From Caecibacter massiliensis (lineage in GTDB: Bacteria > Bacillota > Negativicutes > Veillonellales > Megasphaeraceae), in the NCBI GenBank assembly GCA_900095875.1, contig LT608311.1, forward strand, positions 1,240,001-1,304,000: a stretch of 64,000 nt of DNA, in the 5' to 3' direction. Numbering within the stretch: position 1 is the stretch's first letter; every line of letters starts with the position of its first letter. Positions 3,041 through 32,170 of this stretch are shown in pieces. Below the pieces are notes generated by a model. The model saw only the letters and a list, made by a program, of their open reading frames with translations. It was not told where the DNA came from and searched no databases. The translations under genes and the position numbers were made by a program.

Positions 3041-3114
3041 AATGAACGGAAATGATTGCTATTTCAATATAATGATTGAACGTGATTGAAAATGAATGAA
3101 AATGTTTGTATAAT
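3041..3114 (+). promoter_or_regulatory. fru operon promoter overlapped by a 10-bp-phased repeat array
   Basis: TTGAAA (3086-3091) and TATAAT (3109-3114) are 17 nt apart. Decamers resembling AATGATTGAA begin at 3041, 3051, 3071, 3081, 3091 and 3101, on an exact 10-bp register, with one unrelated decamer at 3061. The array covers the -35 region and the spacer. It is a likely operator for the DeoR-family regulator encoded immediately downstream. Confidence 0.65.
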
Positions 3115-3161
3115 ACGGGGTATAAAAAGTAATTCTGATTGTACAGAGGTAGGTGATATAT

Positions 3162-3926
3162 GTGCTGACAGAAGAACGACAAGATGAGATGGTACGGCTG
3201 GTAACGGCCGGCGGTTCTGTTTCCGTACAGGAACTGGTTGATTATTTTCAGGTTTCTGAAGCGACGGTGCGGCGTGATTTGTCGGTCCTGAACCGGGACG
3301 GCCGGCTTCGCCGTGTTCATGGCGGGGCAACGGCACTGCCTTCTGAAGAAGGGGTGTATGAAGCCAATATGGAAGAACTGGAACATAAGTATTCTCTCCA
3401 TATGACGGAAAAACGGCGCATAGCCCAGTATGCTGCTTCCTGCGTGACTGATAGCGATTTTGTGTATCTTGATGCGGGATCGACGGTGGAACAGATGGCA
3501 GATTTTCTGACAGGGTCAGGGGCATCCTTTCTGACCAATAGCCTGCCCCTGGCACAAAAACTGGCCCGGAATGGCATATCTGTTCATATGCTGCCAGGCC
3601 ATGTAAGGGGAACGACTGCATCCGTCGTCGGCAGTGAACTCCTTCAGGCACTGGCGCAGTATCATTTTACCTATGGCTTTTTTGGTACCAATGGTATCAG
3701 CCTGGAAGAAGGTTGTACGACGCCGGACGCAGAAGAAGCTGCTGCCAAGGCCGCGGCCTTTTCCCAGTGCCGGCGGGCCTATATACTGGCGGATGGCAGC
3801 AAGTTCGGCCTGGCTTCCCATATTACATTTGCGCCTCTTACAGGCGTGTCAGTCATAACGGCACGGAGCAGCCGGGATGTCGATTTTGCTCCTTATAAGA
3901 AATTGACGGAGGTGCATGTGCTTTGA
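3162..3926 (+). CDS. fruR: DeoR-family transcriptional regulator of the fructose operon (FruR-like)
   Basis: 254 aa. The N-terminal winged helix (about 1-58: LVDYFQVSEATVRRDLSVL, RRVHGGA) is the DeoR signature, followed by a sugar-phosphate sensing domain of the DeoRC type with DAGSTVEQM, FLTNSLPLA and DGSKFG motifs. Such regulators usually respond to fructose 1-phosphate when placed ahead of fruK-fruA. GTG at 3162 is chosen because MLTEERQ is the usual DeoR beginning and AGAGGTAGGTG lies just upstream; GTG at 3153 would overlap that site. Its stop overlaps the fruK start, so it is the first gene of the operon and probably represses itself through the repeat array upstream. Confidence 0.9.
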   Translation: MLTEERQDEMVRLVTAGGSVSVQELVDYFQVSEATVRRDLSVLNRDGRLRRVHGGATALPSEEGVYEANMEELEHKYSLHMTEKRRIAQYAASCVTDSDFVYLDAGSTVEQMADFLTGSGASFLTNSLPLAQKLARNGISVHMLPGHVRGTTASVVGSELLQALAQYHFTYGFFGTNGISLEEGCTTPDAEEAAAKAAAFSQCRRAYILADGSKFGLASHITFAPLTGVSVITARSSRDVDFAPYKKLTEVHVL

Positions 3927-4828
3927 TTTATACCGTTACCTTTAATCCTTCTCTGGATTATGTCGTTCACATGAAAAAATTTGCCGCTGGTGCCATTAAC
4001 CGGGCCGAAAAGGAAACGATTTATCCCGGTGGCAAGGGCATCAACGTAGCGCTTGTCCTGGGAAATCTCCACATACCGGCACGGATGCTGGGCTTTATGG
4101 CCGGATTTACGGGGCAGGAAATTGAACGGCTCTGTGAAGAAAACGGAGGCGATTGTGATTTCATCCGTCTGGACAAGGGGTATTCCCGTATCAATATGAA
4201 AATCAGTGCGGAAGAAGAAACGGCTGTCAACGGAATGGGGCCGGTTATTCCGAAGGATAAACTGAAACAGCTCATGAAACAAATTGAAGCTCTGGATGAA
4301 GGAGACACGCTGGTACTGGCCGGCAGCATTCCTTCTACTCTTCCGGGCGATATGTATGAACAAATCCTGAAACGCATGGAATTTCGCCATATCCGCACGG
4401 TTGTCGATGCCACCGGTGACTTGCTGCGCAACGTCATTGCCTACCGGCCGTTTCTCATCAAGCCCAATCAGGATGAATTGGGTGAACTCTTCAGTGTTGT
4501 CCTGCACAGGGATGAAGAAATCATCATGTGTGCCAAACGGCTCCAGACCATGGGAGCACGCAATGTCCTCGTTTCTCTCGGCGGTGACGGGGCCCTGCTT
4601 CTCGGTGAAGATGGAAAAATCTACCGCCGTCCGTCTCCCCAGGGCCGGCTGGTGAATTCCGTCGGTGCCGGTGACAGCATGGTAGCCGGTTTCCTGGCTG
4701 GTTTTGAAGCATCTGGCGGCAGTCTGGAAGAAGCGCTGAAATGGGGGATTGCTGCCGGCAGTGCTACAGCGTTCCAGGACTGGCTTGCTGGCGAAAAGGA
4801 AATAAAGAAATTGTATAAAACACTGTGA
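3923..4828 (+). CDS. fruK: 1-phosphofructokinase FruK
   Basis: 301 aa PfkB-family kinase that phosphorylates fructose 1-phosphate to fructose 1,6-bisphosphate with ATP. N-terminal TFNPSLDY, the GGKGINVA motif (about residues 35-42) and the PfkB signature VNSVGAGDSMVAGF near residue 250 with the catalytic Asp are all present. It starts with TTG at 3923, overlapping the fruR TGA by four bases, with GGAGGTG 8 nt upstream. Its stop overlaps the beginning of the fruA reading frame, indicating translational coupling. Confidence 0.96.
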   Translation: MIYTVTFNPSLDYVVHMKKFAAGAINRAEKETIYPGGKGINVALVLGNLHIPARMLGFMAGFTGQEIERLCEENGGDCDFIRLDKGYSRINMKISAEEETAVNGMGPVIPKDKLKQLMKQIEALDEGDTLVLAGSIPSTLPGDMYEQILKRMEFRHIRTVVDATGDLLRNVIAYRPFLIKPNQDELGELFSVVLHRDEEIIMCAKRLQTMGARNVLVSLGGDGALLLGEDGKIYRRPSPQGRLVNSVGAGDSMVAGFLAGFEASGGSLEEALKWGIAAGSATAFQDWLAGEKEIKKLYKTL

Positions 4829-4863
4829 CCGATGTGCGTTTTCTGGAAAGCGAGGAAAATTCC

Positions 4864-6837
4864 GTGCGTATTGCAGACTTATTAAAAAAAGAAAGTATTG
4901 ATTTGCAGGCCCGGGCTGCTGATAAAGCCGGGGCTATCGATCATCTCGTGGGACTGATGGAAAAGGGCGGTCATCTGAAAGATACGGCAGCCTACAAGGC
5001 CTGTGTCCTTGCCCGGGAAGAAGAAGGCAGTACGGGAATCGGTGAAGGCATAGCGATTCCCCACGCCAAGACCGACGCCGTAGCGACGCCAGGCCTGGCG
5101 TCGATGATTGTCCGTCAGGGCGTCGATTACGAAAGCCTCGATGATGAACCGGCCTATTTGTTCTTCATGATTGCAGCCCCTGCCGGTGGTGCCAATATTC
5201 ATCTGGAAGTTCTGAGCCGCCTTTCCCGGATGCTCATGGATGATGATTTCCGGGAAAAACTGATGCAGGCTGCATCGGCTGATGAATACCTGCAGATCAT
5301 CACCGATGCCGAAACGGCCCAGCTGGCTGAAGACGCAGCTGAAGCGGCGGCTGAAGAAACTGCTGTAGACGGCAATGCCGTATCCGATGATGTGACAGAT
5401 ACGGAAACGCAATCTGCCGCACCAGATGCCGGACGCCCTTATGTCATCGGCGTTACGGCCTGCCCGACCGGCATTGCCCATACCTATATGGCAGCGGAAG
5501 CACTGGAACAGAAGGCTGCTGAAATGGGTGTCGATATCAAGATTGAAACGAACGGTTCCGGCGGTGTCAAGCATCACCTGACGGCGGATGATATCCGCCG
5601 TGCTGCCGGTGTCATCGTCGCTGCCGATAAAGACGTACCGGTGGAACGGTTTGATGGCAAACGCGTCCTCTTCGTCAAAGTGGCGGCAGGAATCAAAGAG
5701 CCGCAGGCTCTCATCCGTCAGGTCCTGGACGGGACACCGCCTGTATTCCATGGTACGGCTTCTGAGTCGGAAGCGGTAACAGAGGCGGAAAGCGGCGAAA
5801 GTACAGGCCGTCAGATATATAAGCATCTGATGAACGGCGTATCCCACATGCTGCCCTTCGTCATTGGCGGCGGGATTCTCATTGCCCTGGCATTTCTTTT
5901 CGATATGGGTAATGCCGGTACGGCCCAATTTGGTACAGGAACTCCTCTTTCGGCATTCCTGAAAAACGTCGGCGGACTGGCATTCAGTATGATGATGCCT
6001 ATCCTGGCCGGTTATATTGCTGCCAGTATCGGTGAACGGCCGGCTCTCATGCCGGGTATCGTCGGCGGCTTCCTGGCGACGACTGGTGGTTCTGGTTTCT
6101 TCGGGGCCCTCTTTGCCGGATTTATTGCCGGGTATCTCATCATCCTGCTGAAAAAAATATTTTCCCATCTTCCCCAGGCGTTGGAAGGGACTAAGCCGAT
6201 TCTCATCTACCCCGTACTGGGACTGGTCCTCATCGGCCTTATCATGACGTATATCATTAATCCTCCGACATCGGTGTTCAATCACTGGCTGGCAGATACG
6301 CTCTCATCTATGACGACATCCAGCCGCATCATCCTAGGCCTTGTCCTGGGTGGTATGATGTCAATCGATTTCGGCGGTCCTATCAATAAAGCGGCGTATG
6401 TTTTTGGTACGGCATCCCTTATGGACGCATCTGGTGCGGCCGTCAGCTCGGGCATCATGGCATCGGTCATGATCGGTGGCATGGTGCCACCCATTGCGAT
6501 TTCCCTTTCCATGCTGCTCTTCAAGAAAAAATTTACGCCGAAAGAACGGCAGTCTACGATTACCAACTTTATCATGGGACTGTCCTTCATTACAGAAGGA
6601 GCTATTCCCTTTGCCGCGTCGGATCCGTTGCACATTATTCCGCCCTGCGCTATCGGATCTGCTGCAGCTGGTGCCCTTTCCATGCTTTTCGGATGTACCG
6701 TACCGGCACCGCACGGTGGCATCTTTGTCTTCGGCGTCGTCACCAACTGGCCTATGTATTTTGCATCTTTGGCAGCCGGCGCTGTCATTGCAGCCGTCAT
6801 CATGGGGATTATCCGCAAAAAACGCCCCCAGTCGTAA
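4864..6837 (+). CDS. fruA: PTS fructose transporter subunit IIABC FruA
   Basis: About 657 aa, in the order IIA-IIB-IIC. The IIA phosphorylation site is His67 in GIAIPHAKT; the IIB site is Cys200 in VIGVTACPTGIAHTYMA after an acidic Ala/Glu-rich linker (about 150-190); the IIC membrane domain begins near residue 310. It imports fructose and phosphorylates it at C1. GTG at 4864 gives the usual MRIADLLKKE start and has GCGAGGA just upstream; an in-frame GTG at 4825, overlapping the fruK stop, is the alternative. ptsH and ptsI follow, so the locus carries all the general and specific PTS proteins. Confidence 0.95.
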   Translation: MRIADLLKKESIDLQARAADKAGAIDHLVGLMEKGGHLKDTAAYKACVLAREEEGSTGIGEGIAIPHAKTDAVATPGLASMIVRQGVDYESLDDEPAYLFFMIAAPAGGANIHLEVLSRLSRMLMDDDFREKLMQAASADEYLQIITDAETAQLAEDAAEAAAEETAVDGNAVSDDVTDTETQSAAPDAGRPYVIGVTACPTGIAHTYMAAEALEQKAAEMGVDIKIETNGSGGVKHHLTADDIRRAAGVIVAADKDVPVERFDGKRVLFVKVAAGIKEPQALIRQVLDGTPPVFHGTASESEAVTEAESGESTGRQIYKHLMNGVSHMLPFVIGGGILIALAFLFDMGNAGTAQFGTGTPLSAFLKNVGGLAFSMMMPILAGYIAASIGERPALMPGIVGGFLATTGGSGFFGALFAGFIAGYLIILLKKIFSHLPQALEGTKPILIYPVLGLVLIGLIMTYIINPPTSVFNHWLADTLSSMTTSSRIILGLVLGGMMSIDFGGPINKAAYVFGTASLMDASGAAVSSGIMASVMIGGMVPPIAISLSMLLFKKKFTPKERQSTITNFIMGLSFITEGAIPFAASDPLHIIPPCAIGSAAAGALSMLFGCTVPAPHGGIFVFGVVTNWPMYFASLAAGAVIAAVIMGIIRKKRPQS

Positions 6838-8940: not shown

Positions 8941-8955
8941 AAAATTAGTTTAATA

Positions 8956-9118
8956 TGCAGGTCAGGTGTCGCAAGACTTAATAGAAAAGCCGGTAGAAGC
9001 CGGCGCGGTCACGCCGCTGTGAGGAAGAGCGATGCTGCAATGATGTCACTGTACGATTCGTATGGGAAGGCGCAGCAAAGCCATGAAGCCAAGCCAGAAG
9101 AACTGCCTGACTGATAAT
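8956..9118 (+). ncRNA. Cobalamin (adenosylcobalamin-type) riboswitch
   Basis: The region has the B12-box GCCAAGCCAGAAGAACTGCC (about 9088-9107), the upstream GGCGCGGTCACGCCGCTGTG arm with GAGGAAGAG, and a closing helix between GTCAGG (8961-8966) and CCTGAC (9106-9111). It is followed by an intrinsic terminator at 9177-9204, so cobalamin would switch off the downstream chelatase gene. Confidence 0.95.
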
Positions 9119-9176
9119 CACCGATGGACCTGCGAGCGATGGGAATGGAGATTATAATGCGAATTGGCGCATCAAT

Positions 9177-14039: not shown

Positions 14040-15446
14040 CTATTTTTTTACTTCTGGTGTCCGGATAGGCCTTTTGTCAATCAGCCACACCAGAAAAAAG
14101 GTAATCAGGCAGATGAGCCATTCAAAATAAATGACGTGAGGCAGGAATCGTATCTGCGGGCACAGCTGCCACAGGAATAATCCGATGATACCTACCAAAG
14201 TAGTGGCAAAAGCCGTATTTTTCCGGCACAGAGACGGACAGAACATAGTAGCCAGGAAAACCAGTGTAAAGGCCGTTGTGAGAGACAAACCGATGAGCAT
14301 GACTTTGACGATGCCGACGGCATTGAAGGCCAGCCAGAGTGTTCCAGCCCCGATAATCAGGATGATGAGGCGGTTGGCCCGGACATATCCTTTTTCAGAG
14401 ATAGACGGATTGAAAAAACGTTTGTAAATATCCTGGGCTACGAGAGTACCGGCCCCGAGCAGGATGGTACAGGCTGTTGATACATCGGCAGCCCAGAGTG
14501 CGGCCAGGGTCATTCCGGAAGAAAACGGGTCCAGACTCATGATAATCTGTGGCAGAGCCATGGTTGGATTCAGACCCGGAAACTGGGCTTTGGCAGCCAG
14601 ACCCAGGATGGCAGACAGGAAGCCGACAGGAAAAATGAGCAGGCCGCCCAGGATAAATCCTTTACGGGCCGCTGTGGCATTTTTAGCGCCACAGGCAATC
14701 TGGACCGGCCCCTGGGCAGTAATGGCCTGGGTAGTCATGACAATGATCCAGCCCAGGAGTACGGCCAGAGACAGCCCGCCAAAAGGACTGAACCAGTCAA
14801 AATCAGAAGGGGGAAGTGCGGCATTGATACCGGATATGCCGCCATCCCGCAATAGGATACGTATCATGGAATAAACGATGCCGGCATAGATAATAGCGAC
14901 ACTGAGCACATTGGAAAGGCCGCTCGACCATAGACCACCGATGGCAGTGATGCCGATGAAGACGATGGCACTAGTAATCATCCCGCCATGAAGAGAAAAG
15001 ATATCTGGCATGAGCGCGTGCAGTATAGATCCGCCGGCGACATACTGGAGAGATGTAATGCATATCATGATCAGAGACAGGCCGATGACACTGATGACAC
15101 GGGCTTTTTTATCATAACACCGTTCGAAGAGTTCCGGGATGGTCGTGCAGTCCAGTGAACGGTATCTGCCGGCAGCGACGATCCCCATAATGATGGCACC
15201 GATGGACCAGGCTCCATTATACCAGCCGGCTGACAACCCGATCTTTGTGGCACTTTCGGCGACACCTACCGTGGAAGCAGCTCCGACGGCCATACCGGTG
15301 ATACTGACAGCGACGAGCCCTGCAGAAAACTTGCGGCCGGCAAACAGGTATTCTGTTGGATTCTGTCCGGCCCGGCGTTTTACATACAAAGAAATACCAA
15401 ATAATAGCAGGATGTACAAAATAACGATACTGAGCTGAATTGACAT
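14040..15446 (-). CDS. Sodium:solute symporter family (SSF) protein
   Basis: 468 aa with about 13 membrane helices. The early PTEYLFAGRKFSAGLVAVSI and the GAASTVGVAESATKIG segment are typical of SSF symporters (PutP/PanF/DhlP type) of the LeuT-fold superfamily, which import a solute with Na+. Start placed at ATG 15446, preceded by GAGGGGAG; the longer upstream reading frame has no such site. A perfect 18-bp inverted repeat sits 57-101 nt upstream. The substrate is not evident; neighbours are a second amino-acid-like permease and an aminotransferase. Confidence 0.87.
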   Translation of the reverse strand: MSIQLSIVILYILLLFGISLYVKRRAGQNPTEYLFAGRKFSAGLVAVSITGMAVGAASTVGVAESATKIGLSAGWYNGAWSIGAIIMGIVAAGRYRSLDCTTIPELFERCYDKKARVISVIGLSLIMICITSLQYVAGGSILHALMPDIFSLHGGMITSAIVFIGITAIGGLWSSGLSNVLSVAIIYAGIVYSMIRILLRDGGISGINAALPPSDFDWFSPFGGLSLAVLLGWIIVMTTQAITAQGPVQIACGAKNATAARKGFILGGLLIFPVGFLSAILGLAAKAQFPGLNPTMALPQIIMSLDPFSSGMTLAALWAADVSTACTILLGAGTLVAQDIYKRFFNPSISEKGYVRANRLIILIIGAGTLWLAFNAVGIVKVMLIGLSLTTAFTLVFLATMFCPSLCRKNTAFATTLVGIIGLFLWQLCPQIRFLPHVIYFEWLICLITFFLVWLIDKRPIRTPEVKK

Positions 15447-15502
15447 GAAAAACTCCCCTCTTTCCTGCCGGGCAGTACGGTTTCCCCCTGTAGCTGCCGG
15501 CA

Positions 15503-15547
15503 TTGATATATGGATTCATTGTATGGGAAAATGAATCCATATATCAA
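15503..15547. repeat. Perfect 18-bp inverted repeat upstream of the SSF symporter gene
   Basis: TTGATATATGGATTCATT (15503-15520) is repeated exactly inverted at 15530-15547 around a 9-nt spacer. There is no T run on either side. It lies in the promoter or leader of the symporter gene and may be an operator or an RNA hairpin. Confidence 0.8.
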
Positions 15548-15624
15548 TTCATTCAGGTGAAAGAGTTTGTTATACCTGCTTTGCGTATTTAAAGGCATCT
15601 GCCTGCAGAAGCTCATAGGTAATA

Positions 15625-15670
15625 TAAAACAGGTCCCTCCTATGACAACAGGATAGTCATGGGAGGGACC
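15625..15670 (-). terminator. Terminator of the YkvI-like gene
   Basis: GGTCCCTCC-TATGAC pairs with GTCATGGGAGGGACC; on the minus strand it is followed by a T-rich stretch. Confidence 0.75.
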
Positions 15671-15697
15671 CGTTTATGATGTGATGGATATAGCCGG

Positions 15698-16843
15698 TTA
15701 ATTATCTGAATCTTCCCGTTCCAGGCCGATTTCTTTATCTTTCATGAAATATACTTTGATGAAGACGACGATGATCATGATGATGCCGACCTGTCCCAGA
15801 AGTGGATACAGGAAGCCAATCAGTTTGCCGAAACCAATCTGTGCACCGAAAAATGCGACGATGCCCAGAATGACGGAGACGGCCATTTTGGCGGTTTTAT
15901 TGGGAAGCCATTGTTCCAGTTTGTTGATGACGACCCAGAACATAGGAGCGCCGGTACTGTAAATACCCATAAGAAGGATAATCGAAAAGACGGCTGCCAG
16001 CGCCGGAGCGAACTGCTGGGCCAGGAACAGATTAGGAACCTGCAGCTTGGCGACCTGTTCCGGGAAGCAGAGCATGGCAGCCGTCATGAGGCCGCCGGCC
16101 AACATGAGGGCGACGCCGCCTATGAAGCCGCCGAGAAATGCTTCTTTGCGGTTATTGGCCTTGCCGCCCAGCCCGGTCAGGAACGGGATAGAGCCAAATA
16201 CCATGCAGGATGCATAAAGGACGCCACTGAACCAGGCGGAATCCAGGAAGGCGTACTTGGCGAACCACCAGGATTTAGTGGCACGCAGGTCATACAGGAC
16301 TTCCCAGTTCTGTGCCCAGCCGCCATGGAAGCTGATGAGCGTCATGAGGCCGATGCCCAGTGTAAAGACGATGATGACAGGACCGATGGCACCGATGATA
16401 TCGGCCAGCTTCATCAGTCCCAGCATGACCGTAAGGACGCAGAGAGCGGCCATGAAGACACGGCCGGCATCGGCAGGAATGCCTACGAATTCAGAAGCAA
16501 TGGCTCCTGTTCCGGCAATCATGATAGAGACGACTGAAAACAGGAACAGGACAGTCACCCATTCTAAGATGGTTCCTACATATTTTCCACAATAATAACG
16601 AAAAGCCTGGGTGTGATATTTTAATTTTAAATCATAGCCCTTTTGCATCAGTGCGCCACCAAAAAATGCAAATATGAGCATACTGATGGCTGCGCCAATG
16701 AAACCGTCCGGTCCGTACGCGCCAAAGAACTGCAGGACTTCCTGTCCTGTAGCATAGCCAGAACCTATCATAAAAGCACAATAGGCACCGGCAAAAATAA
16801 TAATGTTTTTCAAACTTGTCTTGCCTGTCTTATTGATATCCAA
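15698..16843 (-). CDS. YkvI-like membrane protein (COG3949), putative amino acid transporter
   Basis: 381 aa with about 10 membrane segments. The N-terminus IIIFAGAYCAFMIGSGYATG with the GSGYATGQEVLQFF motif marks the YkvI family of the amino acid-polyamine-organocation superfamily; function is not established. The protein starts with TTG at 16843, eight bases after GGGGGA. It lies between an SSF symporter and a HisC-like aminotransferase on the same strand (60 nt from the latter), which suggests that this strand groups uptake and conversion of an amino acid. Confidence 0.8.
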   Translation of the reverse strand: MDINKTGKTSLKNIIIFAGAYCAFMIGSGYATGQEVLQFFGAYGPDGFIGAAISMLIFAFFGGALMQKGYDLKLKYHTQAFRYYCGKYVGTILEWVTVLFLFSVVSIMIAGTGAIASEFVGIPADAGRVFMAALCVLTVMLGLMKLADIIGAIGPVIIVFTLGIGLMTLISFHGGWAQNWEVLYDLRATKSWWFAKYAFLDSAWFSGVLYASCMVFGSIPFLTGLGGKANNRKEAFLGGFIGGVALMLAGGLMTAAMLCFPEQVAKLQVPNLFLAQQFAPALAAVFSIILLMGIYSTGAPMFWVVINKLEQWLPNKTAKMAVSVILGIVAFFGAQIGFGKLIGFLYPLLGQVGIIMIIVVFIKVYFMKDKEIGLEREDSDN

Positions 16844-16903
16844 TGTTTTTTCCCCCAGTTTTATTTAAATTTGGACAGGATCCGGCCATAGGTATCCCCC
16901 ACC

Positions 16904-18010
16904 CTATGCCTGGAGCTCGCTTTCTATAGCGGCAATACGTGTAAGCAGCGGTTTTACATCATCGGGGACGCGCAGACGGACGTGGCGTTTTCCGATTCCT
17001 TCAAAATCGACACCATATTCGACGCGGATGCCATGTTTCCAGAATATGGCGCCCAAGTCCGTATCGGCATCTGTGTAATACAGTCCGATAGGCACATCGG
17101 GGCGTGTTTTTGAAACATGCAGGACGTGCAGACTATCTATGAGGGCTTTTTTATTGTTTGCAATGGTTTCTCTGGACATTTTCAAAAAGCCCGGATCTTG
17201 AAGCACAATGGGAATCAGTTTGTCTGCTGGTGTCGTGATGGTCATTTCGCCGGGATCTTTAGCTAGGACCGGGACCATTGCCTTAGGCAGGACTATGTAA
17301 CCGGCACGGAGTGCACCCAGTCCGAATCCTTTGGAAAAGGTACGGGCGATGACCAGATTGTCATAGTCGTTGATGAGCGAAACGGCCGATTCTTCTTTTT
17401 CAAGAAAATCGCCGTAGGCTTCGTCGATGACGACGACAATTTCTTTTTCTCGTGCCGCGTCGAGAATACGGCGGATGTCAGCCAGCGGTAGTGCCTGCCC
17501 TGTCGGATTATTGGGATTGTCGATATAAGCCAGCCGCTGACCTGGTTTCAGTGCCGCAATATAGCGGTCTGTGTCAAAGGCGAATTTCTCTTCTTCTTTC
17601 AGCGGGACGGATACGATGGCTGCTCCGCAGGAGCGGGCATTGGACGTATACGACGAGAAACACGGCATCGGTGCTACAACAGTCGTCCCTTCTTCCAGAA
17701 AGATACTGTTGATGCGGCACAAGGCACTCATAGATCCGCTTTGCATGGATATCTGGGATATGTCCAGATCGGCGATATCTGAAAAATACTGGCAGATATG
17801 GCGGCGGGTTTCCGTAAAAGGATGGGCCGGATACGAATGAAGCAGATCGAACGTATCGGCATAGGCTTCTTTTGTCAGAGTCGGTGTAACACCGCAGGGA
17901 TTGACTCCCAGTGAGCAATCGATGATATCCTTTTCCAGAGATGTGCCTTCATCTTTCAAATAACTGTATACGGTCACGTTTTCCAGAGCGTGACGGATAT
18001 GGTAATGCAT
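16904..18010 (-). CDS. PLP-dependent class I/II aminotransferase (HisC/CobD-like)
   Basis: 368 aa fold-type I aminotransferase. Motifs: AYIDNPNNPTGQALP, VVIDEAYGDFL and the PLP lysine in ARTFSKGFGLGALRAGYI. Closest by pattern are histidinol-phosphate aminotransferases and the related CobD L-threonine-phosphate decarboxylase; the N-terminal IDCSLGVNPCGVTP resembles both. GGAGGTGATACC directly precedes the ATG. There are no his or cob genes next to it, so the substrate is open. It heads a minus-strand run with the YkvI-like permease. Confidence 0.85.
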   Translation of the reverse strand: MHYHIRHALENVTVYSYLKDEGTSLEKDIIDCSLGVNPCGVTPTLTKEAYADTFDLLHSYPAHPFTETRRHICQYFSDIADLDISQISMQSGSMSALCRINSIFLEEGTTVVAPMPCFSSYTSNARSCGAAIVSVPLKEEEKFAFDTDRYIAALKPGQRLAYIDNPNNPTGQALPLADIRRILDAAREKEIVVVIDEAYGDFLEKEESAVSLINDYDNLVIARTFSKGFGLGALRAGYIVLPKAMVPVLAKDPGEMTITTPADKLIPIVLQDPGFLKMSRETIANNKKALIDSLHVLHVSKTRPDVPIGLYYTDADTDLGAIFWKHGIRVEYGVDFEGIGKRHVRLRVPDDVKPLLTRIAAIESELQA

Positions 18011-18217
18011 GGTATCACCTCCATAATATATTCAGCTGATACTTATACTGATAATGAGTACAAACAGCCTATAATAACCCTATTCTACCGTTATGGGACG
18101 GGTTTGTAAAGCGATTCTCAAGGCATTAGACAGGCCATCAGAATTAAAACGTTTTACTCGTGGGCGGTATAGCTGAGGTGCATCTGGCAGGTAATTTAGA
18201 TGTTGATACAGAAAATT
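18011..18217. other. Intergenic stretch without recognised gene
   Basis: About 200 bases between the divergent aminotransferase and copper-locus genes. I see no open frame or hairpin of note here before the parS site at 18218. Confidence 0.5.
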
Positions 18218-18233
18218 TGTTTCACGTGAAACA
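18218..18233. promoter_or_regulatory. parS site 1 (chromosome segregation)
   Basis: TGTTTCACGTGAAACA is a perfect parS of the Bacillus/Firmicute consensus; flanking bases extend the palindrome to 22 bp (18215-18236). ParB, encoded at 31229, should load here. It is intergenic, 16 bp upstream of the putative response-regulator sites. Confidence 0.95.
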
Positions 18234-18248
18234 AATAAATTTTTTTAT

Positions 18249-18281
18249 CTTCATAGTTTCTTCATACTTTCTACATGATTT
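18249..18281 (+). promoter_or_regulatory. Three tandem 11-bp repeats, putative OmpR-type response regulator operator
   Basis: CTTCATAGTTT, CTTCATACTTT and CTACATGATTT follow one another directly. An 11-bp direct-repeat spacing is typical of OmpR/PhoB-family binding. They end 16 bp upstream of a -10 element TATAGT (18298-18303), so they would replace a -35 box, as in activated promoters. The regulator at 19142 is the obvious candidate. Confidence 0.6.
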
Positions 18282-18332
18282 CTCTATATGCATCGTGTAT
18301 AGTATGGATATGTTCAAAAGGAGGAATAATAT

Positions 18333-18986
18333 ATGACTATGGTAATGACTCACTACATGGAGCTGTTGTCTCTGCACCAGCCCTGGTTTTTAATTTTATT
18401 TATGCTCGTACCGATGGTACTGGCAGAAACGATTCTCGCTTCCGGCGCTTTTTCTCTGTTGTACAAAGACGGACGCAGTGCCAAGTGGGATTCTCTCAGT
18501 CATGTTTGTGGATTGGTCCTTGGTATTTTCTTTATCTGTGCATCTGTTTACATCGTGGCCTGCTATGTCCCCACGATTGAATGGAGAGGCCCGATTGATT
18601 ACATTTCTATCTGGTCTTATGTACTGGCCATTATTCCGGCCGTATTGATTCTGCTCCAGGAATTGGGAATTATCTATAAAAAGCTGGATAACACCATGAA
18701 AATCAAACATCATATTGTGCTCATGATACTCTTTGTCTTATTCACTCACCTGGCTATGGTATTCGGCATGGCTGATCCCCAGCTGGCAGGATATCAGCCG
18801 CCTATGAATACGATGAACATGCAACAGGGCAGTATGGATCACGGCCAGATGACCAATCAGGATACTATGCAGCAGGGCCAGATGAATCATGATAATATGA
18901 ATCAAAGCAATATGAATCATAATCAGATGGATCATAGCCAGATGAACCATGAACAAATGCACGACCAGATGAACAATAACAAATAG
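18333..18986 (+). CDS. Membrane protein with Met/His-rich tail, putative copper handling
   Basis: 217 aa. Four predicted membrane helices (about 12-35, 53-77, 88-110, 126-146) are followed by a hydrophilic tail from residue 155 rich in Met, His, Gln and Asn, with repeated NHDQM/MDHSQM-like units. Such tails bind Cu(I) and occur in CopB-like proteins. I recognise a family of DUF6803-type proteins but am not certain of the name. AAAAGGAGGA precedes the ATG. Upstream are putative response-regulator repeats; downstream a two-component system and copA. Copper binding is inferred from composition and location. Confidence 0.75.
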   Translation: MTMVMTHYMELLSLHQPWFLILFMLVPMVLAETILASGAFSLLYKDGRSAKWDSLSHVCGLVLGIFFICASVYIVACYVPTIEWRGPIDYISIWSYVLAIIPAVLILLQELGIIYKKLDNTMKIKHHIVLMILFVLFTHLAMVFGMADPQLAGYQPPMNTMNMQQGSMDHGQMTNQDTMQQGQMNHDNMNQSNMNHNQMDHSQMNHEQMHDQMNNNK

Positions 18987-19141: not shown

Positions 19142-19843
19142 GTGCTCCCCTACTCTATTCTCATTGCTGATGATGATGAAAAATTACTTACCGTGCTCCG
19201 TTCTTATTTTGAACAGGATCAATGTCTGGTGTATACGGCCCAGACAGGCCGGCAGGCGCTGGATATACTCAAACGATATGAGCCTCAGCTCCTGGTTCTC
19301 GATGTGATGATGCCGGATATGGACGGTTTTGAAGTCTGCCGGCATGTACGCCAGACTAATGATATTCCCATTATTTTCCTGACAGCCAGAGACGATGAAA
19401 CAGATCGTCTTGTGGGGCTGAACATTGGAGCCGATGACTACGTGACCAAACCGTTTAACGTTAAAGAACTGATGGCCCGTGCCCATGCCATGCTTCGTAG
19501 AGCGCGGGGAGAAGTCATACAGCAGTCGTCACAGCTTATACGGGGGGATTTGGTCATTGATAAAGAAAAATTCACCGTCACCCGCAACGGAGAGGCTGTT
19601 TCGCTTACTCCGACAGAATTTAATCTGCTGGAAGTGATGGCCTCTTCTCCCGGTCGTGTTTTTAGCCGCATGCAGCTCATGGAGCGGGCACAGGGCGGAT
19701 ACAGTTTTGAAGGGTATGAACGGACTATTGATACGCACATCCGGAATCTGCGGAAAAAACTGGAGCGTGACGCGGCCCATCCTGAATACATACTTACCGT
19801 CTACGGGATTGGCTATAAATTTGGAGGGACTGCTCATGACTAA
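19142..19843 (+). CDS. OmpR/PhoB-family response regulator (copper-type)
   Basis: 233 aa. Receiver domain with the acidic pocket ADDDE (9-13), phosphorylated Asp54 in LVLDVMMPD, and the conserved Lys in DDYVTKPF. The C-terminal winged helix includes SLTPTEFNLLEVMASSPGRVFSR and RTIDTHIRNLRKKL. GTG at 19142 follows GGAGGTGG. It overlaps the sensor kinase gene by 8 nt. Its position between a Met/His-rich membrane protein and copA makes metal, probably copper, the likely signal. Confidence 0.92.
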   Translation: MLPYSILIADDDEKLLTVLRSYFEQDQCLVYTAQTGRQALDILKRYEPQLLVLDVMMPDMDGFEVCRHVRQTNDIPIIFLTARDDETDRLVGLNIGADDYVTKPFNVKELMARAHAMLRRARGEVIQQSSQLIRGDLVIDKEKFTVTRNGEAVSLTPTEFNLLEVMASSPGRVFSRMQLMERAQGGYSFEGYERTIDTHIRNLRKKLERDAAHPEYILTVYGIGYKFGGTAHD

Positions 19844-20939
19844 CTATTATAGTCTTGTCTTCCGGCTGACAGGCATTATCTTTTTTCTTTTTATTATGAC
19901 TATCGGCATCCTTCTGTTTTTAGTCAATTATCAGATGGATGCGCACTTCTCTCATTATCTTTATAATCACTCCATGGAAATGGGCATAACTTCCCATGGG
20001 ATGGCAGAAGAAATATATGTTTCTTCTGTTCACCGGTCTCTTTTATGGGTTGGTGCCGTCATGACTCTTCTCAGTGTATTTATCAGCTGGATTGTCATCC
20101 GCTGGTCTATTCAGCCCCTGCAGGATCTGACAGAAGCCGTCCGTCATGTTGAGGCTGGTTCCTTCGGGGAAACCGTGCTCGTTGACCGACAGGATGAAGT
20201 GGGATTACTGGCCCAGTCTTTTAATGCTATGTCAAAAAAGTTACAATACAATGACACGATGCGTCGCCATCTCTTTGCCAGTATAGCCCATGAACTCCGG
20301 ACACCTCTTGCCATTATCCAGGGAAATCTGGAGGGCATGATCGATAATGTCATTCCGGCAGACAAGAAAACATTTTTGTCTCTGGAAGACGAAGTTCTCC
20401 GCGTAAGCCGGCTCGTTCAGGATCTGCGGGATTTGTCCCTGGCAGAAATCAATGAATTACAACTTCATTGCCATCCTTTGCAGATAAATGACCTTCTTCA
20501 ACAGGCGGCTAGTATGCTGGAACCGCTTTTTGAGGAAAAACAATTACAGGTCCGCCTTTCTACAGATGATGAGGTACCGCTCCTTTCACTGGATAAAGAC
20601 CGGATGAATCAGGTTATTTATAATCTTTTAAATAATGCTATCCGCTATGTACCTTGCGGAGGGGCTGTTTTCATTCAATCGCGGCTGCGGCGGCTAAAAA
20701 ACGGCCAGCGCGTCGAAATCTGTATTGCTGATTCCGGACCGGGTATCAGTCATCAGGACGTACCTCATATTTTTGAGTATTTCTATCGGGCAGAGAAATC
20801 ACGAAACCGTAAGAGTGGAGGTTCCGGTATTGGCCTGGCTCTGGCGCGGCAATATGTCATCAATCAGGGTGGATATATACGCGTCCACAGTAAAGAGGGA
20901 AAAGGCACGATCTTTACAATCTGCTTCCCCATTTTATAA
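19836..20939 (+). CDS. Sensor histidine kinase, putative copper sensor
   Basis: 367 aa. Two membrane helices (about 9-31 and 68-88) enclose a short extracytoplasmic loop unusually rich in His and Met (AHFSHYLYNHSMEMG, TSHGMAEE), suiting Cu or Ag sensing. A HAMP linker follows, then the H-box FASIAHELRTPLAII, the N-box NLLNNAIRY, and the G-boxes DSGPGI and GGSGIGLAL. ATG at 19836 lies within the end of the response regulator gene, preceded by GGAGGG, which argues for translational coupling. Its transcript ends at the parS-containing hairpin. Confidence 0.92.
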   Translation: MTNYYSLVFRLTGIIFFLFIMTIGILLFLVNYQMDAHFSHYLYNHSMEMGITSHGMAEEIYVSSVHRSLLWVGAVMTLLSVFISWIVIRWSIQPLQDLTEAVRHVEAGSFGETVLVDRQDEVGLLAQSFNAMSKKLQYNDTMRRHLFASIAHELRTPLAIIQGNLEGMIDNVIPADKKTFLSLEDEVLRVSRLVQDLRDLSLAEINELQLHCHPLQINDLLQQAASMLEPLFEEKQLQVRLSTDDEVPLLSLDKDRMNQVIYNLLNNAIRYVPCGGAVFIQSRLRRLKNGQRVEICIADSGPGISHQDVPHIFEYFYRAEKSRNRKSGGSGIGLALARQYVINQGGYIRVHSKEGKGTIFTICFPIL

Positions 20940-20941
20940 TG

Positions 20942-20994
20942 AAAAGGATGCTGTATCATGTTTCACGTGAAACATAGTACAGCATCCTTTTTTT
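20942..20994 (+). terminator. Intrinsic terminator whose upper stem is a parS site
   Basis: AAAAGGATGCTGTA (20942-20955) pairs with TACAGCATCCTTTT (20978-20991), then T's. The parS palindrome fills the space between the arms, so the RNA would form one long rod with the parS half-sites as the upper stem. Confidence 0.85.
20959..20974. promoter_or_regulatory. parS site 2, embedded in a terminator
   Basis: A second perfect TGTTTCACGTGAAACA, 2.7 kb from the first. It sits between the sensor kinase gene and the DUF1294 gene. Confidence 0.95.
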
Positions 20995-21047
20995 ATGATA
21001 CAATAGGAATAACAGAAATGAGCGGATTGAAAGAAAGGAGTTCGTAT

Positions 21048-21326
21048 ATGCTGAATATTAATCTGACCTTTGTGTACTGGTATTTATTTTTACTGAATAT
21101 CCTTACCTTTGCCCTGTTTGGATTGGAAAAACGATTTCAGGACGGCGGATCTTCCCGTATACCGGAATGGGTCCTGCTCCTGCTGGCTGTACTGGGAGGG
21201 TCGATGGGAGCTTTCTTTGCTATTTATATTTTTACTTATAAAAAAGACCGGCCAAAATTTAAATACGGAATCCTTGCCCTGTATGCCATACAATTCGCAA
21301 TCTGTGTCCGGCTGGGCATATTCTGA
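21048..21326 (+). CDS. DUF1294 family small membrane protein
   Basis: 92 aa with three predicted membrane helices. The FGLEKRFQD segment, IPEWVLLLLAVLGGSMGAFFA and the HKT-like KKDRPKFKYGI are recognisable of DUF1294, a family of unknown function. ATG at 21048 follows AAAGGAG by 7 nt; the frame is open further upstream into the parS terminator but without a ribosome binding site. It is convergent with copA and has no clear functional link to copper. Confidence 0.8.
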   Translation: MLNINLTFVYWYLFLLNILTFALFGLEKRFQDGGSSRIPEWVLLLLAVLGGSMGAFFAIYIFTYKKDRPKFKYGILALYAIQFAICVRLGIF

Positions 21327-21468: not shown

Positions 21469-21675
21469 TCAGGCAGTTACCAGTTTATAACCGGCATCGG
21501 CAATGACTTTGGCAAATTCTTCTGTAGAGATGTCACGGGTGGCTTCTACGTCGGCTTTGCCGCCATCGAGATCAACCGATACGGCGGTTACGCCATTCAT
21601 AGCGGATAATGCTTCCTGGACGTGTTTCTGGCAATGCTGGCACATCATGCCTTCAATTTTTAATGTGGTTTTCAT
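21469..21675 (-). CDS. copZ: Possible internally initiated copper chaperone CopZ
   Basis: An in-frame ATG at 21675 inside copA has AAGAGGA 7 nt upstream and would give a 68-aa protein: MKTTLKIEGMMCQHCQKH, then a complete ferredoxin-like metal-binding domain. This is the normal size of a free CopZ, which delivers Cu(I) to CopA. It could be made separately from the copA message. That a free product exists is inference. Confidence 0.45.
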   Translation of the reverse strand: MKTTLKIEGMMCQHCQKHVQEALSAMNGVTAVSVDLDGGKADVEATRDISTEEFAKVIADAGYKLVTA

Positions 21676-24342
21676 AGTGGAATCCTCTTCTTTCTCTGAA
21701 AGTAATGTATATCCTGCAGCCGTAATGACTTTTTTAAAGTCATCGGCCGGGATGGCAGATGAACTGGTGACAGTGGCACCTTTGCTGTCCAGATCGACGT
21801 GAACCGTTGCAACGCCGGGCATTGCTTCTAGTTCTTTGGTGACCGTGCGGACGCAGTGCTGGCACATCATTCCGTCGATAGTCAGTTTATATTGATGCGC
21901 TGCAACAGGTACTGTCTGATCGGTTTCTTCCATGATTTCAGTGGCCGTTGACGGCTGTATTGTAAGTGCATCGGTTGTGGCTGACGAAGCGGTATGGGTG
22001 GATTCTGATTGCCTTGTTTCACGTGAAACATGGTGAGTCTGGTGATCTGGTTTAAAGAAGCGCAGGCGCAGGGCATTCATGCAGACACTGAAGCTGGAAA
22101 GACTCATGGCCGCTGCACCGATCATCGGATTGAGACGGATGCCAAAGGCCGGATATAGGACCCCTGCTGCCAGGGGAATGCAGATGGCATTGTAGAAGAA
22201 TGCCCAGAACAGATTTTCTTTGATATTGCGTATGACAGCTTTGCTGAGGCGGACGGCGCTTACGGCGTCGAGGAGATCATTGCGCATGAGTACGGCATCG
22301 GCGCTTTCAATCGCTACATCCGTGCCAGCCCCTATGGCAATCCCTAAATCTGCTTTGGCCAGTGCCGGAGCATCGTTGATACCATCGCCAATCATAGCGA
22401 CCTTATGGCCTTGTGCCTGGAGAGCTGCAATATGGCGTTCTTTATCTTGTGGCAGGACGCCGGCGATTACCTGAGGAATATGGAGCCGCTTGCGGATGGC
22501 TTCAGCTGTGCGCTGATTATCCCCGGTCAGCATGACCACGTCGATTCCCATTTTGCCAAAGAGCGAAATCGCCTGGGCGCTGCTTTCTTTTTCCATATCG
22601 GCGGCAGCGATGATGCCGATGACTTCTGTACTGTCGGCAAAGATGAGCGGTGTCTTCCCAGCGTCTGCCAGTCCATCCAGCCGTTGTCGGATTTCTTCTG
22701 TGGCAATACCCTTTTCTTCCATGAGACGGGTATTGCCAGCATAGTAAGTCTGGCCATTCCATATAGCTTCAATACCGCGCCCGAAAAGGGCTTTAAAGTT
22801 TGTTACCGCTTTGGGAACGGCATGATGGTCCTGGGCATAATTCATAATAGCTTCTGCCAGGGGATGTTCACTCCCCTGCTCCAGGCTGACTGCCAGCGTA
22901 AGCAGTTGGTCTTCTGTTCCCTTGCGGACCCAGATGTCAGTTACGCGGGGGCGGCCTTCCGTAATGGTACCGGTTTTATCCATGACGACTGTATCGATGG
23001 TATGGGCCGTTTCCAATGCTTCTCCTGATTTGATGAGGATACCATTTTCGGCTCCTTTACCAGTACCTACCATGATGGCGACCGGTGTTGCCAGTCCCAG
23101 TGCGCAGGGGCAGGAAATGACGAGAACAGAAATGGCCGTAGAAAAGGCAAATTCTGCAGTGGCACCGAGCAGGAAGTACCAGACCAGCCCTGTGATAACG
23201 GCGATGGTCATGACGACAGGAACGAAAATCCCGGAAATTTTATCAGCCATTTTGGCAATAGGCGCCTTACTGGCACTGGCTTCGTCAACCAGCTTGATAA
23301 TCTGGCTGATTGTCGTATCCGCTCCGACACGACTGGCCTTGACGTGAATAAAACCTGTTTTATTGATCGTAGCAGAGGTGACGGAATCGCCTTTTTGTTT
23401 TTCTACAGGGATACTTTCGCCGGTGATGGCGGCTTCATCGATACTGGTCGATCCTTCAGAAATGATGCCGTCTGCAGGGATGCTTTCTCCCGGGCGGATG
23501 ACCATTTCATCACCTACGGCGAGTTGTTCTACGGGAATGACCTCTTCTTTGCCATTGCGGAGCACCGTGGCCTGCTTGGGAGCCAGATCCATCAGTTTTT
23601 CAATGGCCGTACTGGTTTTTCCCTTGGCGCGGGCTTCCAGGTACTTGCCGATATCGATGAGGGTAACGATCATACCGGCTGATTCAAAATAGAGATTTGT
23701 GCTGTACTGGGAAACGAGAGCCCAGTCGCCGTGGCCCATGCCCCAGCTCATGCGGAAAATGGCAAAGACACCATATACGGCGGCTGCCATAGAACCCATG
23801 CCCACGAGGGTATCCATATTCGGTGCGCCCTGGAACAGGGTCCGGAAGCCGTTGATATAATACTTTCTGTTGAGATACATGATGGGCAGTATAAGCAGAA
23901 ATTGGGTAAAAGCAAAGGTGATGGCGTTTTCATCGCCATGGAATATTGCCTGGAACGATTCCGGAACGGGGATGCCGAACCATTCCAGTAGCATATGGTG
24001 CATGGCGATATACATGACGGGAATCAGGAACAGGATAGACCCGATCAATCGCTTTTTCATGGTTGCCATATCTTTTTTTGCCAAATCAGAAGGACTGGGC
24101 TCTGGAGCCGCAGCTGTTTTTTTATTTCCTCCGGAAAGAGTTGCCCCGTATCCGGCATCTATGACGGCCTGGATGATATCCTGGCTGGATAGCGTCCCTT
24201 CATCATATTCGACCTGCATACTATTAGTCAGTAAATTGACACTGGCTTTTTTCATGCCTGCCAGTTTGGAAACGGCTTTTTCGACCCGGCTGGAGCAGGC
24301 CGAGCAGCTCATACCGGTAATGGCATATTTCTCATGTTTCAT
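21469..24342 (-). CDS. copA: Copper-exporting P1B-type ATPase CopA with CopZ-like domains at the C-terminus
   Basis: 957 aa. An N-terminal heavy-metal domain (GMSCSAC, Cys13/Cys16) is followed by the P-type ATPase core with ISCPCALGLATP (metal-binding CPC), the phosphorylated DKTGT and the GDGINDAPALA hinge. It exports Cu(I) from the cytoplasm. Unusually, a linker (about 765-810) leads to two more heavy-metal domains at the C-terminus (MMCQHCVRT, MMCQHCQKH). The last 68 residues are a complete CopZ chaperone starting with an in-frame Met890. parS site 3 encodes residues 771-776 of the linker. The gene follows csoR by 10 nt, so copper derepresses both. Confidence 0.95.
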   Translation of the reverse strand: MKHEKYAITGMSCSACSSRVEKAVSKLAGMKKASVNLLTNSMQVEYDEGTLSSQDIIQAVIDAGYGATLSGGNKKTAAAPEPSPSDLAKKDMATMKKRLIGSILFLIPVMYIAMHHMLLEWFGIPVPESFQAIFHGDENAITFAFTQFLLILPIMYLNRKYYINGFRTLFQGAPNMDTLVGMGSMAAAVYGVFAIFRMSWGMGHGDWALVSQYSTNLYFESAGMIVTLIDIGKYLEARAKGKTSTAIEKLMDLAPKQATVLRNGKEEVIPVEQLAVGDEMVIRPGESIPADGIISEGSTSIDEAAITGESIPVEKQKGDSVTSATINKTGFIHVKASRVGADTTISQIIKLVDEASASKAPIAKMADKISGIFVPVVMTIAVITGLVWYFLLGATAEFAFSTAISVLVISCPCALGLATPVAIMVGTGKGAENGILIKSGEALETAHTIDTVVMDKTGTITEGRPRVTDIWVRKGTEDQLLTLAVSLEQGSEHPLAEAIMNYAQDHHAVPKAVTNFKALFGRGIEAIWNGQTYYAGNTRLMEEKGIATEEIRQRLDGLADAGKTPLIFADSTEVIGIIAAADMEKESSAQAISLFGKMGIDVVMLTGDNQRTAEAIRKRLHIPQVIAGVLPQDKERHIAALQAQGHKVAMIGDGINDAPALAKADLGIAIGAGTDVAIESADAVLMRNDLLDAVSAVRLSKAVIRNIKENLFWAFFYNAICIPLAAGVLYPAFGIRLNPMIGAAAMSLSSFSVCMNALRLRFFKPDHQTHHVSRETRQSESTHTASSATTDALTIQPSTATEIMEETDQTVPVAAHQYKLTIDGMMCQHCVRTVTKELEAMPGVATVHVDLDSKGATVTSSSAIPADDFKKVITAAGYTLLSEKEEDSTMKTTLKIEGMMCQHCQKHVQEALSAMNGVTAVSVDLDGGKADVEATRDISTEEFAKVIADAGYKLVTA
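22015..22030. promoter_or_regulatory. parS site 3, inside the copA coding sequence
   Basis: A third perfect TGTTTCACGTGAAACA, read in copA as VSRET within the linker before the C-terminal metal-binding domains. Confidence 0.95.
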
Positions 24343-30425: not shown

Positions 30426-30462
30426 AATATATAGACTTAAATTTGGAAATGAGGTGACTGCG

Positions 30463-31239
30463 TTGGCTCATATTATTGCCGTGACGAACCAGAAAGGCGG
30501 CGTGGGCAAGACGACGACCAGCATTAATCTGAGCGCCTGTCTGGCAGACTGCGGCAAGCGTACATTATTGGTGGATCTGGACCCCCAGGGCAATGCGACG
30601 AGCGGTCTGGGTATCGATAAAGAAAGCCTTTCCGGCAATTTATATGACTGCCTGATTGATGGCGTACCGATGGAACAGGTATTGCAGAAGACGGCAGTGA
30701 AAAAGTTGTCTGTCATTCCGGCGACGATGGATGTAGCCGGGGCAGCCGTAGAACTGGTCAATATGGATAAACGGGAACAGGTATTGAAGCAGGCGCTGTC
30801 AGATTGTCTGGAAGCGGCGAAAAAGCCCTATGACTTTGTTCTCATCGATTGTCCCCCCTCACTGGGGCTTCTGACCATCAATGCTCTGGTGGCATCGGAC
30901 CAGGTACTGATTCCCGTGCAATGTGAGTTTTATGCACTGGAAGGTCTGGCCCAGCTGATGCAGACCGTCGAGATGGTACGGGATAATATGAACAGCAGCC
31001 TGCGCCTGCTGGGACTGCTGCTCACTATGTTTGACGGCCGTACGAACCTGTCTCTGCAGGTTGCCGAAGAAGTAAAAAAATACTTCAGCGGACAGGTGTT
31101 CCGCACGATTATCCCGCGCAATGTACGGTTGGGAGAAGCTCCGAGTCATGGGGAGCCTATCACCGTGTACGACCCTCATTCCCGCGGTGCGGAAGTGTAT
31201 CGAAAATTAGCCAGAGAGGTGATTCGCCGTGTCGGTTAG
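30463..31239 (+). CDS. parA: Chromosome partitioning ATPase ParA (Soj)
   Basis: 258 aa. Deviant Walker A motif KGGVGKTTT near residue 10 with AVTNQKGG, and the Walker B VLIDCPPSLGLLT. ParA dimerises with ATP on the nucleoid and drives movement of ParB-parS complexes. TTG at 30463 is preferred because GAGGTG ends 7 nt upstream; a GTG at 30454 overlaps that site. It overlaps parB by 11 nt. The genes lie 8-12 kb from the parS sites found in this window. Confidence 0.96.
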   Translation: MAHIIAVTNQKGGVGKTTTSINLSACLADCGKRTLLVDLDPQGNATSGLGIDKESLSGNLYDCLIDGVPMEQVLQKTAVKKLSVIPATMDVAGAAVELVNMDKREQVLKQALSDCLEAAKKPYDFVLIDCPPSLGLLTINALVASDQVLIPVQCEFYALEGLAQLMQTVEMVRDNMNSSLRLLGLLLTMFDGRTNLSLQVAEEVKKYFSGQVFRTIIPRNVRLGEAPSHGEPITVYDPHSRGAEVYRKLAREVIRRVG

Positions 31240-32170
31240 GAAAAAGGGACTTGGCAGTAATGCCATCCTGGGAAGCCGGCTTCAGGCACTGGGATTAAAA
31301 GAAAAAAAAATAGATGAAATAGATAAGGCTGCTTCTGGTGACGGAACGATGCCGGCGGAACTGGATATTTCGGCCATTGTGCCCAATCCTCATCAGGCGC
31401 GGCGTGAGTTTGACAGCGTGGCATTGGAAGAATTGTCCTCCTCTATCCGCCAGTATGGGCTGATCCAGCCGCTGGTCGTACAGAAGAAGCCTGATGGCAC
31501 GTACGAACTGGTGGCGGGAGAACGGCGCCTGCGGGCTGCGAAACTGGCTGGCCTGAAAACGATTCCTGCTCTGGTACGGGAGTATACACCCGATGCGGCT
31601 GCCGAAGTGTCACTCATTGAAAACCTGCAGCGGGAAAATCTGAATGTCATGGAAGAAGCAGCGGCATATGACATGCTGATCCATACGTTCGGACTGACGC
31701 AGGAAGAGGCAGCACAGAAAGTGGGCAAGAGCCGTCCCCACGTAGCCAATATGATACGCCTTTTGAAACTGCCTGACGAAATATGCCAGTTCCTCCGCGA
31801 TGGGACACTGTCTATGGGACAGGCCCGCCCCCTGCTTCAGCTTGCCGATGAAGATCAGCAGCTGGCGGCAGCCGGACAGATTATCCGCCAGGGATTATCG
31901 GCACGGCAGTGTGAAGCCCTCGTGGCCCGTATGCTGCAGGGTGGCACGGACAAGGGACCGAAAGAACCCGATGCCTATCTGGAAGCCATGCAGGACCGAA
32001 TTAAAATGCATCTGGGGACTAATGTTTCTATTCATTTCAACCGGAAGAGGCAAAAGGGGAAAATCGAAATCTCCGTAGCGTCGGAAGCCGAATTTGAACG
32101 GCTTCTGGCTCTTTTGACAGAAGAAAAGACGGGAGACGGCACGGAAAGGCCATCTTCTTTTACAGTTTAG
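31229..32170 (+). CDS. parB: Chromosome partitioning protein ParB (Spo0J)
   Basis: 313 aa CTPase clamp. The GERRLRAAKLAG box (CTP-binding GERRxRA motif), PNPHQARREF and ENLQRENLN mark the N-terminal domain; GKSRPHVANMIRLLKLP is the HTH that reads parS; a dimerisation domain closes the C-terminus. GTG start with AGAGAGGTG upstream. It should load onto the three perfect parS sites at 18218, 20959 and 22015. Confidence 0.97.
   Translation: MSVRKKGLGSNAILGSRLQALGLKEKKIDEIDKAASGDGTMPAELDISAIVPNPHQARREFDSVALEELSSSIRQYGLIQPLVVQKKPDGTYELVAGERRLRAAKLAGLKTIPALVREYTPDAAAEVSLIENLQRENLNVMEEAAAYDMLIHTFGLTQEEAAQKVGKSRPHVANMIRLLKLPDEICQFLRDGTLSMGQARPLLQLADEDQQLAAAGQIIRQGLSARQCEALVARMLQGGTDKGPKEPDAYLEAMQDRIKMHLGTNVSIHFNRKRQKGKIEISVASEAEFERLLALLTEEKTGDGTERPSSFTV

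Follow-up and report, generated by a model that had tools for sequence, protein, structure and literature searches.

parS sites are usually described as protein sites alone, and a search of the literature (partial listings, with few subscription papers, and not proof of absence) gave no description of a parS inside a terminator. None is described in the available portions of PMC7022226, PMC12779278, PMC8585504, PMC2397512, PMC10681803, PMC5450999 or PMC5521831, and the words "terminator" and "hairpin" are absent from the first of these, a review of chromosomal ParB, as far as its text was available. The nearest precedent that we found is in Neisseria, where paired DNA uptake sequences are described as Rho-independent terminators (PMC2397512, available part). 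The likeness is that a short motif with another use doubles as a terminator stem. In the Neisseria terminators, however, two copies of a 10–12-mer form the stem, whereas in the element described here a single palindromic parS occupies the tip and the basal stem is built from arms that are unrelated to parS, rather than from two inverted copies of one motif. The copy numbers also differ, with uptake sequences numbering hundreds to thousands (PMC2346458, available part) and parS one to six per genome in the home genus.

The window, a stretch of 64,000 nucleotides from Caecibacter massiliensis (contig LT608311.1, positions 1,240,001 to 1,304,000), contains an exact parS within a hairpin that directly follows a sensor kinase gene. 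Very probably this element serves the response-regulator/kinase operon as an intrinsic (Rho-independent) terminator tipped by a parS, a double use at the level of the sequence. The relevant features are as follows.

18218-18233, no strand assigned: second exact parS, intergenic, with only 3 contiguous flanking pairs
19142-19843, + strand: OmpR-type response regulator gene, in the same operon as the kinase
19836-20939, + strand: sensor histidine kinase gene (Pfam HATPase_c, HAMP, HisKA), whose transcript the hairpin would end; the open reading frame spans 19656-20939 and the ATG at 19836 was taken as the start
20942-20955, + strand: 5′ arm of the putative terminator stem, AAAAGGATGCTGTA, pairing exactly with 20978-20991
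20959-20974, no strand assigned: exact parS, TGTTTCACGTGAAACA, in RNA a predicted apical stem-loop of 6 bp with the loop ACGT
20978-20991, + strand: 3′ arm of the stem, TACAGCATCCTTTT
20988-20994, + strand: T7 tract, the putative terminator U tail, whose leading four T are at the same time base-paired to the A tract in the 5′ arm
21048-21326, + strand: DUF1294 gene, just downstream of the hairpin and on the same strand as the kinase
21469-24342, − strand: copA, a copper-type P-type ATPase gene, facing the kinase operon
22015-22030, no strand assigned: third exact parS, lying within the coding sequence of copA, without arms
30454-31239, + strand: parA (soj)
31229-32170, + strand: parB (HTH_ParB, ParB_N, ParB_C)

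Read directly from the window, the order of the hairpin is AAAAGGATGCTGTA-TCA-TGTTTCACGTGAAACA-TAG-TACAGCATCCTTTT, with three further T behind it. The arms pair exactly over 14 bp, and the spacer between arms and parS consists of a U.G wobble (20956/20977), a C.A mismatch (20957/20976) and one A-T pair. The earlier note had described one continuous hairpin; the 14-base arms and the T run are as it described them, but the single C.A mismatch interrupts the stem. The RNA fold of 20936-21000 has an energy of −31.4 kcal/mol (z −10.0), equalled by none of 200 shuffles, and the presence of the parS inside the hairpin at 20942-20994 is confirmed. As in an intrinsic terminator, the stable stem-loop is followed immediately by a T tract, and it also stands where a terminator would, on the same strand as the kinase with a gap of two bases between the stop codon and the 5′ arm. 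A simple terminator scan of the window does not include this hairpin among its listed sites, as an interior mismatch may escape the rule of that scan. A crude longest-ORF gene caller, whose context counts are only a guide, labelled the hairpin as coding because an open reading frame at 20958-21326 starts inside it.

Three sites in the window match parS with up to three mismatches, all of them exactly, against 0.24 expected, and a search of the entire 2.65-Mb genome (two contigs) allowing two mismatches gives these three and no others; their occurrence is not chance. They lie within 4 kb of one another, clustered about 25–30 kb from dnaA, which was used as the marker of the replication origin, and 8–12 kb from the cognate parA-parB genes of the same window (30454-32170). 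The parS in the hairpin is therefore like other chromosomal ParABS sites in its exact 16-bp sequence, in its nearness to dnaA and in belonging to a genome with parA and parB, and it would be bound by ParB; it differs in forming part of a hairpin that follows a gene. At 18218 and 22015 the flanks form no more than 3 contiguous pairs, and armed and armless parS thus stand side by side in one genome. With a canonical parS, a genome encoding ParA and ParB, and a strong predicted terminator, the proposal of the earlier note that one piece of DNA is both a parS site and the terminator of the sensor kinase operon is supported as a prediction from sequence.

The strength of the hairpin was compared with that of other sites using a terminator score, d, of the d'Aubenton-Carafa type. 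The window hairpin scores 43.6, and the bare parS at the window's other two places score −56 and −65. Proteins of the window were searched against the loci of 14 relatives (L021-L032, L191, L192), and in eight of these the kinase faces copA as it does in the window. Ordinary terminators with d of 31–41 are present at this junction in four relatives; in L032, L191 and L192 there is a stem-loop without parS, and in L021 the stem-loop lies beside an armless parS. L026 has a parS-cored hairpin with arms unrelated to those in the window, located 14 nt from the end of copA and 163 nt from the end of the kinase gene (as placed by the crude gene caller), and with a d of 38 in the direction of the kinase and 64 in that of copA. 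In L025 an extra open reading frame (15175-15735) separates the kinase gene from copA, and a parS-cored hairpin lies 78 nt after it, again with arms unrelated to those of the window; a mismatch and a bulge bring its d to 2.2, barely above zero. In L027 and L031 the ends of the two genes overlap. Among these relatives a parS-cored hairpin is thus present only in L026 and, past the extra gene, in L025. Where relatives carry a terminator, the window and L026 would have one with a parS as its tip. The window hairpin resembles the ordinary terminators in its GC-containing stem, its T tract, its position directly past the stop codon and its score, and differs from them in having a fixed ParB site at its tip in place of free sequence.

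Two other sites in these relatives may be mentioned. L029 contains, at 7778, a two-mismatch parS, TGTTTCACAAGAAACA, with arms and a T5 tract, possibly a decayed parS that still serves as a terminator, and at about 6384 in L027 there is a terminator-like perfect palindrome of 34 nt with the core GCACGTGC and a T6 tract, which is not a parS. The DUF1294 gene was tried as a handle on conservation of the hairpin and failed, as it has a match in four of the 15 genomes of the genus, that of the window included, and the other three sit at different places.

Armed parS sites recur in distant bacteria. The sample was drawn from class and order searches (exact parS in 128 of 150 and 44 of 45 genomes, respectively) and from the genus, where a parS with at most one mismatch is present in all 15 genomes. 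The 222 occurrences, from which a further one at an edge was left out, include repeats from overlapping loci and reduce to 140 distinct sites; coverage of the class is uneven, its sites being among the matches listed and families without listed sites missing. At least seven contiguous Watson-Crick pairs abut parS at 31 of the 140 distinct listed sites, against a mean of 0.11 and a maximum of 2 in 2000 trials of a null that joined each upstream arm to a downstream arm from another site. Because of its mismatch the window site falls outside the 31, but it belongs to the 36 of 140 listed sites that reach an arm score of 6 or more, for which the null has a mean of 1.04 and a maximum of 5. An energy criterion of −16 kcal/mol is reached by 46 of the 140 listed parS (null 6.2, maximum 14). 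Contiguous pairing and energy were used in place of counts of arm pairs in RNAfold structures, which let too much through, the null itself giving 57 of 140 sites with eight or more pairs. The tails of the 36 armed sites, taken as the nine bases past the last GC pair on the better strand, have more T than A in 28 and more A than T in four (p = 2.7e-4).

Sampling more widely, a parS with a T6 is found in 26 of 299 genomes of the phylum, versus 16 of 299 for a parS with an A6; the excess is only moderate, such that a T tract near parS is by itself no evidence and the arms have to be measured. Among the phylum loci with T runs, seven sites besides that of the window have at least seven contiguous pairs (in some cases the paired site is a different parS in the locus and not the one with the T run), and the loci with A runs have none, the best having six. 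A scan for parS-N7-14-T7 in a collection of 84,980 species gave at least 120 stretches and 80 loci, and illustrates spread rather than frequency. Among the matches listed, 26 of 83 parS-plus-T7 sites reach an arm score of 6 or more, where the null averages 1.15 and never exceeds 4, with the sites of L204 and L210 entering the 83 on both strands, and the armed sites include members of Paraburkholderia, Arthrobacter, Lachnospiraceae, Roseburia and Selenomonas, a Planctomycetota bin and a Dadabacteria bin.

Two of these lineages were followed through their genera. The hairpin of Paraburkholderia guartelaensis lies after a livF-like ABC-ATPase gene (NCBIfam LivF is the best match, below its cut-off) and before mnmG. 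A parS is present in all 30 Paraburkholderia genomes searched, and the livF-like end was recognised upstream of it in 29, at readable distances of 28–91 nt (L360 gave none); the duplicate locus L372 was dropped, and G477 has no recognised livF end at either fetched parS. Arms and a T tract, defined as at least five of the six pairs next to parS and at least five T in eight, accompany 28 of the 29 recognised sites, all 29 rows being counted, and the sole failing row, L366, has no arms. Pair 2 is C-G in 17 rows, T-A in ten, T-G in one and C-C in the failing L366, requiring roughly 5–6 changes on a livF tree whose support is weak. Covariation across the arms, with only ten distinct arm pairs, gives 55 of 70 cells paired, the same as the shuffle maximum of 55. 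In the livF direction the tail has more T than A in 26 rows and more A than T in one of 27; the opposite direction has some bias too (17 versus 5, p = 0.017). Sites with weak or no arms (L337 and L366 here, and L388 in Arthrobacter) are left out of the tail-direction counts.

The hairpin of Arthrobacter sp. MYb229 follows a gene of the ParB/Spo0J family, which scores above the cut-off of TIGR00180 and better, though below its own cut-off, with the Noc model. Homologues of this protein are present in all 18 genomes of the genus searched, and a parS lies 3′ of the gene in all 18, exact in 17, at 17–25 nt from the stop codon in 17 and 73 nt in L388. Arms are present in 17 of the 18 rows, with L388 having none. 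Arm covariation around the fixed parS is seen at this site; over ten arm pairs in 18 rows, 158 of 180 cells are Watson-Crick pairs (shuffle mean 95, maximum 114) and 48 cells carry changes on both sides (shuffle maximum 23), in shuffles that ignore relatedness and use no tree. The earlier note had made its reading depend on arms that are conserved together with parS, and what is conserved in other lineages is the complementarity of the arms and not their letters; the outcome that the note named as a refutation, a conserved parS with unconserved arms, is thus not what these lineages show. The tails again favor the direction of the upstream gene, with more T than A in 14 rows and more A than T in two of 17 (p = 0.004), compared to 7 versus 6 in the opposite direction, although eight of the 17 have fewer than five T in nine. 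We note two further details of this series: the parS after the parB-family gene in L400 is GGTTTCACGTGAAACC, with both outer bases changed together to G/C and the arms kept, and in ten of the 18 rows (L389-L398) another TGTTTCAC/CGTTTCAC starts approximately 23–28 nt past the first parS, with only its start in view.

The most likely mode of action of the window hairpin is as follows. In duplex DNA the 16-bp parS would be a loading site for ParB, and in RNA the same letters, TGTTTC/GAAACA, would fold with the loop ACGT on top of the 14-bp stem, with the U7 tract releasing RNA polymerase after the kinase gene. The parS would thus supply the apical 6-bp stem and loop, the arms the strength, and the T tract the release, and as the two uses would act on different molecules, no competition between them need be supposed. 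Because parS is already palindromic, short complementary arms and a T tract are enough to turn an intergenic copy lying right behind a stop codon into a terminator, and it may be that the parS came first and the arms later. Selection for termination would maintain the complementarity of the arms while their letters drift, and ParB would hold the parS fixed; a fixed parS between arms that are merely complementary is the pattern found in Arthrobacter. If a good share of parS sites also serve as terminator cores, then where they lie after genes, what flanks them and how parS mutants behave all call for a fresh reading, since a mutation in such a parS would weaken a terminator as well and could shift the expression of neighboring genes through lost termination and not through lost ParB. 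Such sites would also offer a testable case in which one sequence is shared by two machines, RNA polymerase and the partition complex, and, beside the DNA uptake sequences, a recurrent example of one motif with two jobs.

A closer relationship between the two uses, as the earlier note had envisaged, would be a coupled element in which ParB on the parS alters termination, or the terminator shields the ParB loading site from RNA polymerase; the 3′ end of the Arthrobacter parB-family gene would then be self-regulating. The constancy of parS behind that gene in all 18 genomes, with covarying arms in 17, counts in favor of such coupling, and there are related examples in ParB repression of promoters adjoining parS3 and parS4 in P. 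aeruginosa (PMC5521831, available part) and in the influence of a parS on comCDE in S. pneumoniae (PMC7022226, available part). However, parS also sits within genes that must be transcribed, namely copA in the window, mnmG in P. guartelaensis and the parB-family gene of Arthrobacter sp. MYb229, which suggests that transcription through parS is tolerated. One genome can moreover hold both armed and armless parS, and an in vitro study reports that RNA polymerase is not blocked by ParB-DNA clusters, transcription and ParB condensation coexisting (PMC10681803, available part). Neither of the two purposes offered by the earlier note is supported in the form in which it was put. Coupling is not required by the evidence, and we regard it as unlikely at the window hairpin; we would say the same of the broader idea of hairpins with parS cores as a class that is widespread and has evolved repeatedly, and in which ParB occupancy alters termination or 3′-end formation of the upstream gene. 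Were it true, there would be direct feedback from assembly of the partition complex to gene expression, including that of the parB-family gene itself in Arthrobacter.

The arms could alternatively be a by-product of mutation, formed when a nascent strand folds back at parS during replication and copies its own flank, with any termination being incidental. Such an origin would fit arms that are in many cases perfect and adjoin parS without a gap, as well as the several hairpins that lack a T tail. Other palindromes provide a control, and 2 of 23 other perfect 16-nt palindromes are extended by at least four, versus 43 of 159 parS; set against the 17 palindromes that are GC-matched the difference gives a Fisher p of 0.24, and the controls are too scarce to set parS apart from other palindromes or to decide this point. 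Against such an origin, the T tails are enriched and directional, and the arms at the homologous site remain paired through many double changes, which neutral extension does not predict. We consider it very unlikely.

Not all of the extended sites look like terminators. Clusters of extended-palindrome parS lie upstream of parA in genus g36 (L117 at 3580 and 3819; L118 at 3664 and 3755; L119 at 7148, 7294 and 7392), and among the extended parS in this position L117 3580 and 3819, L118 3755, L119 7148 and 7294, and L120 779 have no T tail; the extended parS of L144 and L132 likewise have none. Arms in some lineages may therefore serve more than U-tract termination. A search of L117-L122 with Rfam for RNA genes beside the tail-less palindromes returned three tRNAs only. 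At about 4027-4072 in L117, also upstream of parA, there is a near-parS, TGCTTCACGTGAAACA, with 13-bp arms and a T5 tract. These tail-less palindromes, together with the weak tails of many Arthrobacter hairpins, lend something to the idea that the longer palindrome matters as DNA, for ParB or for cruciform extrusion, independently of transcription. But 109 of the 140 listed parS have fewer than seven contiguous flanking pairs (the window site being one of them, through its mismatch), the letters of the arms vary widely as long as pairing holds, and the 16-bp palindrome is itself described as the parS of chromosomal ParB (PMC5450999, available part). For the window hairpin this explanation seems highly improbable, and a terminator with a parS tip is the better account.

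Lastly, the hairpin could be a 5′-end structure serving DUF1294, on a transcript from a promoter-like TTTACA-16-TATAAT (20913-20940, 11 of 12 matching) that overlaps the kinase stop codon and ends right before the arm, but that match could be chance (36 such sites in 18 kb versus 28 expected), its transcript would meet the U7 stop at once, and the junction has a parS-cored hairpin in L026 and an ordinary terminator in four relatives with no DUF1294 match, so that we set this reading aside as extremely improbable.

Other regulatory RNA elements in the window are a ZMP/ZTP riboswitch (1473-1559, + strand), a cobalamin riboswitch (8947-9124, + strand) and a T-box leader (52530-52744, − strand), all above the Rfam threshold. 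We also note that the intragenic parS of the unrelated genes copA, mnmG and the parB-family gene are in the same reading frame and encode V-S-R-E-T each time (window 22015-22030; L273, open reading frame 3508-5475; L238, open reading frame 2382-3566; L025, open reading frame 16054-18642).
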